A stretch of DNA of 64,000 nucleotides. Origin: an uncultured Emergencia sp. (GTDB taxonomy: Bacteria; Bacillota; Clostridia; Peptostreptococcales; Anaerovoracaceae). Positions 9,246 to 55,361 of the stretch are shown here, one piece after another. The position numbers were made by a program, and so were the translations under genes. A model generated the notes under the pieces. That model searched no databases. It saw only the letters and a list, made by a program, of their open reading frames with translations, and was not told the origin of the DNA. Every line of letters begins with the position of its first letter. Within the stretch, counting starts at the first letter, position 1. The stretch is from assembly GCA_904420065.1 (NCBI GenBank), contig CAJFTU010000006.1, positions 1-64,000 on the forward strand. The letters run 5' to 3'.

Positions 9246-9350
9246 CAGCTGTTCAAATCCTTAAACGTGTTGTTGACAAATTCCGTTATCTCCGTTCTGA
9301 AGATCAGTCCTATGGCGACGGCCAGCGCGATAAGAATCGCCACCTGCACC
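9245..9350 (-). pseudogene. flp: 3' part of the Flp-type pilin gene, disrupted by the prophage
   Basis: The minus strand reads VQVAILIALAVAIGLIF and on to RTEITEFVNNTFKDLNS before a stop that overlaps tadE. The first codons lie in the 15 bp att core. Joined to the 43359-43406 fragment this gives a 44-residue pilin. In the lysogen the frame continues into phage DNA; an ATG at 9361 would give a 38-residue product starting MCEK that lacks the KKG processing site and has no good ribosome binding site. Confidence 0.85.
9336..9350. other. attL core
   Basis: ATCGCCACCTGCACC, identical to 43363-43377. Sequence to the left continues the pilin frame to tadE; sequence to the right is phage. The flanking bases differ between the two copies, so the exact match is 15 bp. 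Confidence 0.88.
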
Positions 9351-39962: not shown

Positions 39963-40145
39963 TTATGTAATCGTTGTTTTTAAATGCTCCGAAATTTTTT
40001 CCGCTGCGTTAAGGCTCTCCACTTTTCCTGTCATTATCTGACGAATGTACGAGTAACTCATGCCGATGTTCTCGGCTAAATCCTTTAAACTTTCGCCGCG
40101 TAGATAAAGCTCACGTCTTACATCAGCTATCCATTCTTTGTCCAT
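39963..40145 (-). CDS. Small HTH protein, Cro-like
   Basis: 60 residues. RRELYLRGESLKDLAENIGM and SYSYIRQIMTGKVESLNAAE make a compact XRE helix-turn-helix. As an early leftward gene just after the divergent promoters it fits a Cro-type lytic regulator that competes at the repressor operators. It overlaps the 55-residue gene upstream by 23 bp. Confidence 0.7.
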   Translation of the reverse strand: MDKEWIADVRRELYLRGESLKDLAENIGMSYSYIRQIMTGKVESLNAAEKISEHLKTTIT

Positions 40146-40290
40146 CTCTATTTTTTTCTTTCTCCTGTTCTCTCTTTCTGGCCAGTCTCAACCCTTCACC
40201 GATCCCGAGAAGATACTCTTTGTTCTTCTCTTCCATGTCTTTTATCCCTTCAGCTATGGACTTTAATATTTCTTTGTCTTTTTCAGACAT
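40123..40290 (-). CDS. First early gene, 55-residue charged helix
   Basis: Missed by the ORF track. ATG follows a near-perfect AAAAGGAGGTGAAAAA. The product is almost entirely charged helix: SEKDKEILKSIAEGIKDMEE then LGIGEGLRLARKREQEKEKN. The string EGLRLARK recurs in an open stretch at 39124-39180. It is the first gene behind the early promoter at 40320. Function unknown. Confidence 0.6.
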   Translation of the reverse strand: MSEKDKEILKSIAEGIKDMEEKNKEYLLGIGEGLRLARKREQEKEKNRDGQRMDS

Positions 40291-40319: not shown

Positions 40320-40348
40320 ATTATACAACCTTTTTTCTGGTTAGTCAA
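40320..40348 (-). promoter_or_regulatory. Early (lytic) promoter
   Basis: On the minus strand TTGACT, 17 bp, TATAAT. Its -35 lies inside operator GGTTAGTCAACTA (40339-40351). Confidence 0.85.
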
Positions 40349-40391
40349 CTACCAATCACTAATTTTATTTTCTGTTTTTAGTTGACTAACC
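40339..40391. repeat. Paired operators of the genetic switch
   Basis: GGTTAGTCAACTA and TAGTTGACTAACC, 13 bp exact inverted copies separated by 27 bp, each covering one -35 box. Confidence 0.8.
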
Positions 40392-40410
40392 AATTTTTGA
40401 ATGCTATAAT
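40379..40410 (+). promoter_or_regulatory. Repressor promoter with overlapping operator
   Basis: TTGACT, 17 bp, TATAAT. The -35 is inside TAGTTGACTAACC (40379-40391), the inverted copy of the operator at 40339, so the repressor probably controls both promoters and itself. Confidence 0.85.
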
Positions 40411-40438: not shown

Positions 40439-40819
40439 TTGACTATTGGATCAAGGGTCAGACAAATCAGAGATCATTTTAAAAAATCAAGGCGGGAATT
40501 TGCACAAGAAGTTGGTGCAACGCCAGACGAGATAAATAACATCGAATTGGATAGATTAAAACGAATGGAGTTAAAGGAGCCTATTTTTATCAATATTTGC
40601 AGTAAATATAACGTCAGCATGAATTGGTTAAAATATGGTCAAGGCGAAATGTTTGAGCAGTTATCCAGAGACGAAGAGATCGCAAAATTTGTCGCTAAGA
40701 TTCTGAACGAGGAAGAAGAGTCGTTTAAACGAAGGTTCATAGAAATGCTTGTTGCCTTATCCCCTGACGAATGGGAGATTTTAGAGCATGCGATTGAAAT
40801 TATAAAAAAGAGGGGTTAA
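40439..40819 (+). CDS. Phage repressor, XRE family without a cleavage domain
   Basis: 126 residues, TTG start after GGAGG. Residues 1-65 are a Cro/CI-like helix-turn-helix (RQIRDHFKKSRREFAQEVGA) with NVSMNWLKYGQGEMF at the domain end, a common phage-repressor signature. Residues 70-126 are helical and probably dimerise (EEEESFKRRFIEMLVALSPD). There is no S24 peptidase segment, so RecA-driven self-cleavage is not expected. It likely binds the two 13 bp operators. Confidence 0.85.
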   Translation: MTIGSRVRQIRDHFKKSRREFAQEVGATPDEINNIELDRLKRMELKEPIFINICSKYNVSMNWLKYGQGEMFEQLSRDEEIAKFVAKILNEEEESFKRRFIEMLVALSPDEWEILEHAIEIIKKRG

Positions 40820-40828
40820 TACCCCTCT
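40809..40828. terminator. Convergent terminator containing both stop codons
   Basis: AGAGGGGT and ACCCCTCT pair around TTAA; the stops of the repressor and of the 33-residue ORF fall in this hairpin. Confidence 0.75.
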
Positions 40829-40917
40829 ACCAGCTGCCGGATAAACGCATAAATGATTTTTAATTGTTTTTCTGACGCATGCTGAAGCAGTTTGTAAATA
40901 GAGTCTAATTGTTCCAT
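40816..40917 (-). CDS. 33-residue protein behind a LexA-type box (candidate SOS-induced antirepressor)
   Basis: The product reads MEQLDSIYKLLQHASEKQLK and ends IRQLVEGY; GAGGT precedes the ATG. Very similar short helical proteins (Q-L-x-I-I-Y-x-F-I-x-x-L) are common next to repressors in Firmicutes prophages and integrative elements. The gene is convergent with the repressor, their stops overlapping. Its promoter contains a perfect GAAC-N4-GTTC palindrome. It could bind the repressor or act through convergent transcription; both are inference. Confidence 0.65.
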   Translation of the reverse strand: MEQLDSIYKLLQHASEKQLKIIYAFIRQLVEGY

Positions 40918-40963
40918 AGCGCACCTCGTTCCTGGAAAGGACTCACACCGAAGATATATTGTC

Positions 40964-40992
40964 AGTATAGAACATATGTTCTTTTTCGTCAA
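40964..40992 (-). promoter_or_regulatory. SOS-type promoter with LexA/DinR box in the spacer
   Basis: On the minus strand TTGACG, 17 bp, TATACT. The palindrome AGAACATATGTTCT at 40969-40982 fits the Gram-positive LexA (DinR) box core GAAC-N4-GTTC and fills the spacer. Confidence 0.72.
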
Positions 40993-41089: not shown

Positions 41090-42178
41090 ATGGAAATCAA
41101 TGAAAAATTAAGTCAGTTCGCAGAACGGTTAGAGTCTCTTAAAGATTCTATTCAAACAGAGGAAGCAACAAAAACTTCTATGGTCATGCCCTTTTTTCAG
41201 CTTTTAGGCTATGATGTTTTCAATCCTATGGAATTCGTGCCTGAATACACCGCTGATGTTGGACTTAAAAAGGGTGAAAAAGTAGATTACGCCATTGTTA
41301 CAAATGGCGACCCTTTGATATTTATTGAGTGTAAACCGTATGGTGAAAATTTAGACAAGCACAATACTCAGCTTTTCCGTTATTTTACTGCTACTTTATC
41401 AGCAAGATTTGCGATTCTGACAGACGGTGTAGTCTACAAATTTTTTACTGATTTGGAGGAGAAAAATCGAATGGACGATGCTCCATTTTTAACTATAGAT
41501 TTGCTACATCTAAAAGATCGTGATATTGCTGAAATAAAAAAGTTCACAAAGGATTCTTTAGATGTTGAAAATATACTCAGTTCCGCCGAAAACCTAAAAT
41601 ACAGCGGCATGATCAAAAATTGGTTTTCATCGCAAATTGACACGCCTTCGGTCGACTTAGTAAAACTTATCCTTTCCCAAATTTACGATGGGCAACGCAG
41701 TCAGAAGGTAATTGAAAAATTCACCCCTCTTGTCCGGCGTGCTATCCAACAATACATAACCGACATGATGAACGCAAAAATTCGAAATGCGTTGAATAAG
41801 GACGACGGCGAAAATGACAAGGAACTGGAAAATGTGGAAAGCGATAGCGTTTCACGGGTTGACAGCGGAGAAGATACTCATGAACGGCACATCGAAACGA
41901 CTATCGAAGAGTTGGAATCTTTTGGAGTCATCAAAGCTATTTTGAGGCAAAATGTCGATAGCGACAGAATCACTTACAGAGATACTGAAAACTACTTAGG
42001 CGTACTGTTAGATGACAATAATCGCAAATGGATTTGCCGCGTTCACCTAAATGGTGGTATAAAATACATCACCGTATCTGATGACAACAAGAAACCTGTA
42101 CGATATAACATTGATACAATTGATGATATTTACAATTTTGCAGATCAAATTGTAAACGCTGTGCAAAAATATTTATAA
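41090..42178 (+). CDS. HSDR_N-type PD-(D/E)xK nuclease domain protein
   Basis: 362 residues. Residues about 20-180 match the N-terminal domain of type I restriction R subunits: EATKTSMVMPFFQLLGYDVF, then the catalytic VDYAIV and FIECKPYG (D and ExK), and ARFAILTDGVVYKFFTD. No helicase part follows; instead there is an acidic linker (DDGENDKELENVESD) and a C-terminal domain with RKWICRVHLNGGIKYI. Such stand-alone proteins are frequent in prophage lysogeny modules and are often suspected of a defence role. It follows the SOS promoter region and precedes the integrase. Confidence 0.85.
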   Translation: MEINEKLSQFAERLESLKDSIQTEEATKTSMVMPFFQLLGYDVFNPMEFVPEYTADVGLKKGEKVDYAIVTNGDPLIFIECKPYGENLDKHNTQLFRYFTATLSARFAILTDGVVYKFFTDLEEKNRMDDAPFLTIDLLHLKDRDIAEIKKFTKDSLDVENILSSAENLKYSGMIKNWFSSQIDTPSVDLVKLILSQIYDGQRSQKVIEKFTPLVRRAIQQYITDMMNAKIRNALNKDDGENDKELENVESDSVSRVDSGEDTHERHIETTIEELESFGVIKAILRQNVDSDRITYRDTENYLGVLLDDNNRKWICRVHLNGGIKYITVSDDNKKPVRYNIDTIDDIYNFADQIVNAVQKYL

Positions 42179-42225: not shown

Positions 42226-42247
42226 GCCTCCTGGTAATTCAGGAGGC
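42226..42247 (+). terminator. Hairpin between nuclease and integrase
   Basis: GCCTCCTG and CAGGAGGC, 8 bp stem with a 6 nt loop, followed by ATAATTTTAT; a moderate terminator. Confidence 0.6.
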
Positions 42248-42284
42248 ATAATTTTATAAAATGAGAGGCAGAAAGGAGGATATC

Positions 42285-43340
42285 ATGATAAGAAAATCTT
42301 TTACGTATGAGGGACAGCGGTATTTCATCAGGGCAAAAGATGAAAAGGACTTTGAAGTAAAAAAGGCTTTGAAGATCCGCGATATTGACGAAAATGTTCT
42401 TATTATCCGAAAAAATATAACCTGTTCGCAATGGGCAAAAGAATGGCCCGAAACATTCAGACCCGCTATAAATGGAAAATGGAACAAAAATATCCATTGC
42501 ATCTTAAATTCATTTTGCAATATGTATGGAAATTTCCCTCTTAACAAGATCGCACAGAAAAACGTGCAGATCTGGGCAAACTCGTTGAGTGGGTTGTCCC
42601 AAATAACCTACAATAAATATTTGGCTGTGGTTAAATCCTTTTTTGAAACCGCTGCAGATAATGACCTTATTCGTGCAAATCCTGTAAAAAACATTAAACG
42701 CCCAATGGTCAGTGAGCACATTTCAAGGCGCTCTATAAGCGATTCTGAGCGAAGAATCATATTAGAGGTATCAGATCACCACCCGTTGGGAATGTACCTC
42801 AAAATGATGCTTTTTTGTGGTTTGAGAACTATGGAGGTCGCCGCCCTCGAAGGCCGTGACATAGATTTAAAGAATAATCTGGTCTATGTACGCTCTAACA
42901 TCGATTACAACGGAAATAAAAAGGCTCCAAAAACCTCTGCAGGTGTCAGGAAGGTACCTATAGTAGATGTTTACGCAAAGGAATTGAGAAAACTCGATTT
43001 GAAACCATTTGAGCCGGTTTTTACGACACCCAGAGGTAAAAGATTCACGAATAGTACATTTCAAAAAAGCTGGAAGTCATTCAAAAAAAGCATGGAGGAA
43101 GAGCACCCTTTCTCAGTATCTCCAGATCTGGTTCCATATTGTTTAAGGCATACGTTTTGCACAGATCTCCAGGACGCCGGTGTCCCGATCAATGTGGCTA
43201 AGGTTTTGATGGGTCACTCGTCCATAAAAGTTACCGCGCAAATTTATACGCACCACACGGAAAAATCTATGGAATCTGCCAGAGAAAAAATGAATGAATA
43301 TGTTTCTGATCCGTGCCATACGCGTGTCAACATTGTTTAA
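42285..43340 (+). CDS. int: Prophage integrase, tyrosine recombinase
   Basis: 351 residues from the ATG after AAAGGAGG. An N-terminal AP2/arm-binding region (MIRKSFTYEGQRYFIRAKDE) precedes the core-binding domain and the catalytic domain with CGLRTMEVAAL (Arg), CLRHTFCTDL (His-Arg) , MGHSS and the Tyr in AQIYTHHT. It ends 22 bp before the att core; two arm-type repeat copies lie in its last codons. It would recombine the 15 bp core in the pilin gene. Excision would also need a directionality factor, perhaps the small winged-helix protein at 38456. Confidence 0.95.
   Translation: MIRKSFTYEGQRYFIRAKDEKDFEVKKALKIRDIDENVLIIRKNITCSQWAKEWPETFRPAINGKWNKNIHCILNSFCNMYGNFPLNKIAQKNVQIWANSLSGLSQITYNKYLAVVKSFFETAADNDLIRANPVKNIKRPMVSEHISRRSISDSERRIILEVSDHHPLGMYLKMMLFCGLRTMEVAALEGRDIDLKNNLVYVRSNIDYNGNKKAPKTSAGVRKVPIVDVYAKELRKLDLKPFEPVFTTPRGKRFTNSTFQKSWKSFKKSMEEEHPFSVSPDLVPYCLRHTFCTDLQDAGVPINVAKVLMGHSSIKVTAQIYTHHTEKSMESAREKMNEYVSDPCHTRVNIV
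43312..43329 (+). repeat. Candidate arm-type integrase sites, right end
   Basis: CGTGCCA at 43312 and CGTGTCA at 43323, 11 bp apart, inside the 3' end of int; same sequence, orientation and spacing as the pair at 9481 and 9492. Confidence 0.6.
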
Positions 43341-43358: not shown

Positions 43359-43406
43359 TTATATCGCCACCTGCACCATTTCCATCCCCTTCTTGTTCGT
43401 TAACAT
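43359..43406 (-). pseudogene. flp: 5' part of the Flp-type pilin gene
   Basis: From ATG at 43406, behind GGAGG, the minus strand encodes MLTNKKGMEMVQVAI and then hits a stop supplied by phage DNA. KKG before MEMVQ looks like a prepilin peptidase site. The fragment lies 17 bp after tadC. Joined to 9245-9350 it restores a 44-residue pilin. Confidence 0.85.
43363..43377. other. attR core
   Basis: Second copy of ATCGCCACCTGCACC. Phage sequence lies to the left and the pilin 5' end to the right. Confidence 0.88.
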
Positions 43407-53627: not shown

Positions 53628-55361
53628 TTATGATAAACCGAGCTCGGAAAGCTCGTTCATAATCTGCTTCATCTCGTCGTTTCGCTTGGTCTTTGCCGTA
53701 GTATTTTTGATTGTCGGCTTATCCGACAGGAAATATTTCTTGACCATCTTGTATGAAGGCATCTTCGCGTTTATCTCATCCATATCTCTGTCCAGCTGTT
53801 CCTTCAGCTGTTCTTCGGTCAGATCATTTTCTTCCAGATACTCTTTATCGTAAACGACTTTAGCCCAGAGCACAAAATCGCTGGCCTTCTCCCTGGTGAA
53901 CACTATGCTTTCCTCCACATAAGGAAGCACGTTGATCAGATTCTCTATCTCTTCCGGAAAAACATTTTTACCGTTCTTCATAACGATAACGTTTTTCTTT
54001 CGGCCGCAGATAAACAGGTAGCCTTCTTCATCGAAATAAGCCAGATCTCCGGTATGAAACCACCCGTCGACAATGACCTCGTCCGTGGCTTCCTGATTGT
54101 CGTAGTATCCGAGCATTACATTATCTCCGCGGACGATCAGCTCACCGATCCCCTCCTCATTGGGTTCAAAGATCTTTCCTTCCACGTTGGGCATCAGTTT
54201 ACCTACCGAGCCCGGTTTCAGGTAACGATAAGTTTCGCTGGAAATCGTCGGAGAAGTCTCCGTCAGGCCGTAGCCCTGTACGGTCAATATGCCCAGATCG
54301 TTAAAGCCCTTTGACACCACCGGGTCTAAAGCCGCCGCGCCGTTGATGATAAAACGCATCCTTCCGCCCAGCTGATCGATAATCGTCTTGAACATCTTTC
54401 TTCGCAGGTTGATTCCGACCTTTTCGCTGACGCTGCAGAGTTTAAGAGCGAAATTCACCTTTCCCTCCATTCCCTGTTTCTCAATGGCCCTATTGATCTT
54501 TTTGTACATGCTTTCTAAGAGCAGCGGCACGCTCATGATTACCGAAACGCCGTACTCCTTCAGATTCATGGTAATATATTTCAGTCCGTCGCAGAACGTG
54601 TTCTTCATCCCCTGGGACAAGAAGGTCAGCAAACCGGACATGCCGTAGCAGTGATGGAGAGGAAGAATCATCATATTTACATCGTCGGGGAAAAACAGTT
54701 CTTCACAGTTCATCCCGTAATTACAGCTCATAAAGTTTCGATGAGACAGCATGACTGCTTTGGACTGGGAAGTGGTTCCTGAAGTGAACAGAAGAAAATT
54801 CATCGAATCCGGATCGATCTCCGCATCCAGATATCGCCGATCTCCCTTCTCCGCCAATTCCTGTCCCTTGTCGATCAGTTCCATCATCGGCACCGCAGAC
54901 TCGGACTCAAAATCCATGGATATGAGCAGGGAAAGACCTGTGGTTTTCTCCTTGGCGATCTGCTCAATCACCTGCGCGTGCTTCTTATCGTAGAAGATAA
55001 CTTCCGCACTGCTTCGGTTCAGACAGCTTTCCAGCTCTTCTTTCTGCAATCCCTTGTCCAAAGGGACGATTACACCGACTCCGCAGCTGACAGAAAAGTA
55101 AGCGAGACACCAATTATAACTGTTTTCACCGATTACGGCAATACGCTTATTCTTGTAGCCCATTTCGATAAGAGCAGTTCCCAGGTATCCCATAGTCTTA
55201 AAGAGATCGGCGTAGGTGGTATTGATATAGTTCACCTCTTTTTTCTCTTTAATCTTTGTTACAAAAGCGACTCTGTCTGCGTATTTCTCGGCGGATGTCC
55301 GCAGCAGCTCCCTCAGGTCACGGAACTCGTAAAATTTTTTCTCTAAATGATAATTTTTCAT
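53628..55361 (-). CDS. AMP-forming acyl-CoA ligase (ANL family, long-chain type)
   Basis: 577 residues. The P-loop motif LLFTSGTTSQSKAVMLSH near residue 190, GYGLTETSPTIS and GWFHTGDLAYFDEEGYLFI are diagnostic; the C-terminal hinge has GRKKNVIVMKNGKN and the catalytic Lys is in NTTAKTKRNDEM-like context. It activates a carboxylic acid to an acyl-CoA. The substrate is not clear from the sequence. A weak ribosome binding site precedes the start. Confidence 0.92.
   Translation of the reverse strand: MKNYHLEKKFYEFRDLRELLRTSAEKYADRVAFVTKIKEKKEVNYINTTYADLFKTMGYLGTALIEMGYKNKRIAVIGENSYNWCLAYFSVSCGVGVIVPLDKGLQKEELESCLNRSSAEVIFYDKKHAQVIEQIAKEKTTGLSLLISMDFESESAVPMMELIDKGQELAEKGDRRYLDAEIDPDSMNFLLFTSGTTSQSKAVMLSHRNFMSCNYGMNCEELFFPDDVNMMILPLHHCYGMSGLLTFLSQGMKNTFCDGLKYITMNLKEYGVSVIMSVPLLLESMYKKINRAIEKQGMEGKVNFALKLCSVSEKVGINLRRKMFKTIIDQLGGRMRFIINGAAALDPVVSKGFNDLGILTVQGYGLTETSPTISSETYRYLKPGSVGKLMPNVEGKIFEPNEEGIGELIVRGDNVMLGYYDNQEATDEVIVDGWFHTGDLAYFDEEGYLFICGRKKNVIVMKNGKNVFPEEIENLINVLPYVEESIVFTREKASDFVLWAKVVYDKEYLEENDLTEEQLKEQLDRDMDEINAKMPSYKMVKKYFLSDKPTIKNTTAKTKRNDEMKQIMNELSELGLS

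Follow-up and report, generated by a model that had tools for sequence, protein, structure and literature searches.

The 64,000-nucleotide stretch of DNA analysed here (the window) is contig C6 of the 2.41-Mb genome of an uncultured Emergencia sp. and contains a prophage of about 34 kb, in which a gene of only 33 codons converges on the gene of the prophage repressor and is preceded by a promoter with a predicted LexA box. The features of this convergent gene pair are as follows:

40439-40819, plus strand: prophage repressor, 126 amino acids (aa), TTG start (Pfam HTH_19, 2.2e-11; AlphaFold2 predicted local distance difference test score (pLDDT) 91)
40816-40917, minus strand: 33-codon gene (MEQLDSIYKLLQHASEKQLKIIYAFIRQLVEGY), ATG start, predicted antirepressor, two-helix hairpin
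40922-40927, minus strand: Shine-Dalgarno sequence GAGGTG of the 33-codon gene
40964-40992, minus strand: sigma-70-type promoter TTGACG-17-TATACT of the 33-codon gene (-35 at 40992-40987, -10 at 40969-40964)
40969-40982, minus strand: predicted LexA box AGAACATATGTTCT in the promoter spacer, recognised by its likeness to host SOS promoters
40803-40828, minus strand: intrinsic terminator of the 33-codon gene (AGAGGGGTATTAACCCCTCT plus T-run), containing both stop codons

As described in the initial annotation, the minus strand carries both the TTGACG-17-TATACT promoter and the LexA-type box in its spacer, and the stop codon of the 33-residue open reading frame (ORF; 40816-40818) overlaps that of the repressor (40817-40819) within a hairpin (40809-40828) that holds both in its loop region. 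The 12-mer core of the box, GAACATATGTTC, lies at 40970-40981, and the 14-mer shares its final T with the start of the -10 element. The hairpin had been regarded as shared by the two genes; it does span both stops, but since a T-run stands beside it on the minus strand only, it is the small gene's own terminator. The small transcript thus overlaps only about 20 nucleotides (nt) of the repressor coding end, and the next terminator-like site on the plus strand occurs only at 42226, so that transcription of the repressor gene may continue through the small gene in antisense. No transcription factor gene adjoins the small gene in the window. The 33-residue protein was modelled as a two-helix hairpin (residues 2-13 and 16-31, pLDDT 94), and the C-terminus of the repressor model likewise forms a helical hairpin (helices 96-105 and 109-125). 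A Pfam scan of the repressor gave only the helix-turn-helix (HTH) family HTH_19 above the cut-off and no S24 peptidase domain, in agreement with the earlier description, and the repressor is accordingly predicted to be non-cleavable, unlike the S24 repressors, which are cleaved with the help of RecA.

The bare motif GAACN4GTTC is present at chance frequency and by itself proves nothing, with two occurrences in the window versus 1.24 expected and 26 sites genome-wide, which equals the background. What lifts the prophage box above chance is the identical 12-mer at the corresponding position of the TTGACG-17-TATAAT promoter that precedes the host gene for a Y-family DNA polymerase, the near-identical boxes at host recA, lexA and rarA, and the retention of the arrangement in relatives. 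The variant GAACNWRTGTTY has only seven sites in the genome, namely the prophage promoter, the Y-family polymerase promoter, lexA, rarA and three sites on contig C9, one of which is intragenic and two of which flank an intergenic region; the recA box, GAACAGATGTTC, immediately precedes the recA ribosome site. On the same contig C9, the LexA-like sites GAACAAATGTTT and GAACATATGTTT lie at most 70 bp apart in intergenic DNA at 54815-54884 (L025, L026). The matches to host SOS promoters, together with the likeness to the LexA boxes of Clostridioides difficile, which are likewise of the form GAAC-N4-GTTY (PMC4234289), argue that the prophage box is a real host-type LexA site. A LexA protein of 212 aa is encoded by the host (PF01726, E 2.2e-18).

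When the repressor was used as a direct query of viral contigs no match was obtained, and initial small-protein searches of phage records and of 99 genomes returned only the protein itself or nothing. Relatives were reached through distant repressor matches, of which 12 distant phage relatives were collected first; at first look, seven of the 12 had a convergent small two-helix ORF, four of these seven with a LexA-like box. Scans with two of these 12 repressors yielded 154 more loci, leaving 142 distinct repressors after removal of duplicates, while an alignment of mixed repressors had too much diversity to serve as a scanning profile. A convergent 30-45-codon two-helix gene accompanied 65 of 88 repressors with a short C-terminal tail, compared to only one of 43 with a long tail, and the unannotated gene pair occurs in about fifty to sixty related viruses. 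A small-protein profile built from eight seeds reached at least 10 bits at the expected place and strand in 46 of 128 non-seed loci, and in none of three control regions (0/128, 0/122 and 0/127) at the same threshold. At 100-330 bp beyond the repressor stop, the exact LexA core was present in 22 of the 65 ORF-bearing loci (0.16 expected from shuffles) versus two of the 71 that lack the ORF; when at most one mismatch was allowed, the numbers rose to 44 of 65 and five of 71, respectively (Fisher p 4e-14). The four spacer bases of the relatives' boxes match the ANAT pattern of the host boxes, and in many relatives a TTGAC-like -35 and a TATAAT-like -10 flank the box; some relatives have a second box near the ribosome site. 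Together with the host SOS promoter matches, the presence of a LexA box in most relatives strengthens the earlier proposal of an SOS box at this promoter.

Two entry points that do not depend on the repressor led to the same picture. A search of 395 genomes of the order with the small-protein profile found ten places at E <= 1e-3, most of which, including the copy studied here, are convergent with an HTH repressor, and one of which lacks any. Also among the ten places, contig C57 of genome G007 (1188-1385; L074, L249) carries the small gene twice in tandem, ahead of an integrase, and no HTH repressor adjoins these copies. Likewise, when viral contigs were scanned for LexA cores linked to a -10 element, 80 loci were obtained, eight of which carry the small ORF at E < 1e-4, and a convergent short HTH repressor was present in all seven of these viral loci with enough contig.

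The small gene is maintained as a protein. Pooled over 26 pairs, synonymous differences per site (pS) were 0.72 and nonsynonymous differences per site (pN) 0.19, giving a pN/pS of 0.26, and 395 differences fell on third as opposed to 122 on second codon positions, indicating that the gene is under protein-level selection. Moreover, small-protein identity correlated with identity in the C-terminal part of the repressor (r 0.41, permutation p 0.0005) and hardly with identity in the N-terminal DNA-binding part (r 0.14), the N- and C-terminal parts of the repressors being shuffled relative to each other (r 0.11). Accordingly, where two repressors resembled each other in the C-terminus (at least 60% identity) but differed in the N-terminus, the identity of their small proteins was 0.57, whereas pairs with similar N-termini but different C-termini were at background (0.28 versus 0.29 overall).

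The immunity region contains a second, divergent control region upstream of the repressor gene, which comprises the following features:

40338-40351: putative operator half TGGTTAGTCAACTA, half of an inverted repeat, overlapping the lytic-direction -35
40379-40392: putative operator half TAGTTGACTAACCA, half of an inverted repeat, overlapping the repressor -35
40348-40320: lytic promoter
40123-40290, minus strand: 55-aa ORF, among the first lytic-direction genes
39963-40145, minus strand: Cro-like HTH protein, among the first lytic-direction genes (Pfam HTH_3, 1.7e-5)

The segments 40338-40351 and 40379-40392 form a perfect 14-nt inverted repeat that spans the -35 elements of both divergent promoters, the lytic one and that of the repressor. 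No LexA-like box was found when this control region was scanned, and the small gene is therefore the sole SOS link of the immunity region. In none of the 88 short-tail loci did a gene for an HExxH protease of the ImmR/ImmA type lie in the same orientation within 700 bp downstream of the repressor gene.

Sequence and statistics show that the small gene has a promoter with a box matching those of host SOS promoters, has a terminator, is coding, is conserved beside short-tail repressors and is inherited together with the repressor C-terminus. On these grounds we consider it likely that the 33-codon gene encodes a LexA-repressed micro-antirepressor that acts on the helical hairpin at the C-terminus of the adjacent repressor, and the gene is probably the part that wakes the prophage upon DNA damage in the host. 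From the sequence we infer LexA binding, contact between the small protein and the repressor, and prophage induction in the following order. In the lysogen, host LexA bound to the box between -35 and -10 would silence the small gene, and the 126-aa repressor would hold the lytic promoter. Upon DNA damage LexA would be inactivated, and transcription, ending at the terminator by the repressor stop, would yield an mRNA of about 150 nt. The 33-residue two-helix product would then bind the C-terminal hairpin of the repressor, probably replacing one partner of a dimeric helical bundle, so that the repressor would leave its operators and the lytic genes would start.

Several observations weigh against this interpretation. 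About a third of the members (21 of 65) have no LexA box at up to one mismatch. The co-inheritance with the repressor C-terminus could possibly be explained by physical linkage, since the coding 3' ends of the two genes touch, and it therefore supports contact without proving it. In a profile comparison the small protein aligned in full register with the 33 C-terminal residues of the repressor (E 0.0015), and this match outscored all column shuffles, yet circularly rotated profiles scored as high or higher. Mimicry specific to the own repressor was not supported, as the small protein is no closer to the C-terminus of its own repressor than to those of others (p 0.21). For both of these reasons, our claim is one of common shape and not of common descent.

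Among the alternatives, the one that survives best is that the small protein is damage-induced but has another target, such as a host component, LexA itself or cell division, and lies beside the repressor by linkage only. Small proteins with host targets do exist in SOS regulons, gp7 of phage GIL01, which acts on LexA (PMC4551915), counts in favour of such a role, and so do the two tandem family members found in one genome without an adjoining repressor. Such a role is nevertheless unlikely in view of the close association with short-tail repressors only, of the tracking of the repressor C-terminal type even when the DNA-binding domain differs, and of the repressor adjoining most loci that were found without a repressor query. 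A second alternative, in which the small transcript acts as an RNA and convergent transcription under SOS control either collides with the repressor mRNA or silences it in antisense, draws on the convergent orientation of the genes and their overlapping stop codons. However, the terminator at the repressor stop, which leaves an overlap of only about 20 nt, makes interference by convergent transcription unlikely; in addition, the ORF evolves as a protein, a search of Rfam gave no family match, and in relatives the distance between the ORF and the repressor gene reaches about 50 nt, so that we regard an RNA mechanism as improbable. The comparative evidence, with the ORF retained as a protein that travels with the repressor C-terminal type, strengthens the earlier proposals of a non-cleavable repressor and of an antirepressor role. 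The initial annotation had left inactivation by binding and by convergent transcription side by side; the former is favoured and the latter disfavoured, owing to the intrinsic terminator. It is very improbable that the small protein is instead a co-repressor or stabiliser that delays induction under mild damage: co-repressors such as Lxc of phage P1 are known (PMC11323111), but the non-cleavable repressor would then be without a known inactivation route, and where a LexA-controlled partner of such a repressor is known, it is an antirepressor (PMC3121763). That box and ORF are chance features, as the background frequency of GAACN4GTTC in the window and genome might suggest, is refuted by the conservation and the control-region statistics and can practically be dismissed.

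The members without a LexA box point to other inputs for the same kind of small protein. In five of these 21 (L109, L120, L130, L137 and L222) a palindrome TTTCC-N8-GGAAA is located 48-88 bp upstream of the start, and this motif occurs five times in about 8.4 kb of DNA upstream of small genes versus three times in about 763 kb elsewhere in the loci, which suggests that another regulator controls the same small protein. In 16 of 65 loci, eight of them without a LexA box, the small gene is preceded by a small XRE gene in the same orientation, and a TTTCC-N8-GGAAA or GTCC-N8-GGAC palindrome often directly follows the XRE stop. The palindromes of the box-less members were also considered as operators of the phage repressor itself, a reading that was rejected because they did not match the repressor control region. 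Seven loci (L100, L107, L115, L133, L155, L184 and L188) combine an upstream XRE gene, a GTCC-type palindrome and two LexA-like boxes ahead of the small gene. On balance, we lean towards the view that the genes represent an unannotated family of 30-45-residue two-helix antirepressors, standard in temperate Clostridia phages with short non-cleavable repressors, whose output would be matched to the repressor C-terminal type and whose inputs would be exchangeable, mostly LexA, XRE plus palindrome in others, and both in some.

Comparison of 64 members with Pfam, NCBIfam and PHROGs gave no credible family, the small protein had no sequence match among PDB chains, and a structure search with its model returned nothing useful among solved structures. 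The gene is unannotated in the Terrisporobacter and Butyrivibrio phage records examined, and gene finders missed it because such ORFs have only about 33 codons. With regard to the surroundings of the module, the direct repeat of 15 bp that delimits the prophage (ATCGCCACCTGCACC, at 9336-9350 and 43363-43377) lies within a short pilin-like ORF that is flanked by Tad/Flp pilus genes, and a pilin-like gene of the tad locus appears to be split by the prophage. The integrase gene (42261-43340) is inside the prophage. Between the repressor region and the integrase, 41090-42178 encodes an HSDR_N-domain protein (phrog_4225, annotated as endonuclease) that is widespread in phages; it was rejected as part of the module, as none of 28 viral relatives had the small gene upstream and only one had a convincing LexA-like box. 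The repressor L070 from a genome of the same family is identical to L181 from an Anaerovorax odorimutans record.

Small antirepressors are known from several systems. Tum of phage 186 is a LexA-controlled antirepressor of a non-cleavable repressor, SinI of Bacillus subtilis is a small helical antirepressor that pairs with the C-terminal helices of the short HTH repressor SinR, and AimX of arbitrium phages is under arbitrium control, unlike the LexA-boxed small gene described here. The antirepressors GfoA, GfhA and GftA of the Salmonella Gifsy prophages are likewise LexA-controlled small proteins that inactivate non-cleavable phage repressors (PMC3121763). The combination of a LexA-controlled small protein with a non-cleavable repressor, common to the Gifsy proteins, Tum and AntC of phage N15, is also predicted here; in contrast to these systems, the present gene is convergent on the repressor, has only 33 codons and matches no Pfam, NCBIfam or PHROGs family. 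The predicted role also resembles that of Qtip of phage VP882 and of the transcription factor-small ORF (TF-smORF) modules, in which a small phage protein inactivates a repressor without proteolysis, and the XRE gene just upstream of the small gene in some relatives adds to the likeness. However, the TF-smORF modules of Vibrio and Aeromonas phages are described as SOS independent (Silpe 2023; PMC10432266), whereas the copy studied here is LexA-boxed and has no adjacent transcription factor. Judging by the titles of PDB entries 9sf2 (Phi106) and 9iaq, the small antirepressor AimX forms a complex with a repressor of about 129 aa, and chain 9sf2_A is a sequence and fold relative of the 126-aa repressor. 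In a structure search the repressor model also matched SinR in the SinR/SinI complex 1b0n, a system which, unlike the present module, is neither a phage switch nor SOS controlled. LexA-controlled antirepressors of non-cleavable repressors are already known, while the family of the 33-codon gene is, provisionally, undescribed, as judged from the open-access literature, subscription papers and preprints lying outside that search.

The open-access literature searched says little about how DNA damage is sensed by those gut Clostridia prophages whose repressors are non-cleavable, and the module offers a concrete, testable answer across many phages, cultured ones included. The small-protein family may rank among the smallest antirepressor families. 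The findings also suggest that phages retain the protein that breaks the off-switch while swapping the sensor that controls it, and such sensor swapping bears on the competition between prophages and on the induction of gut prophages by drugs.
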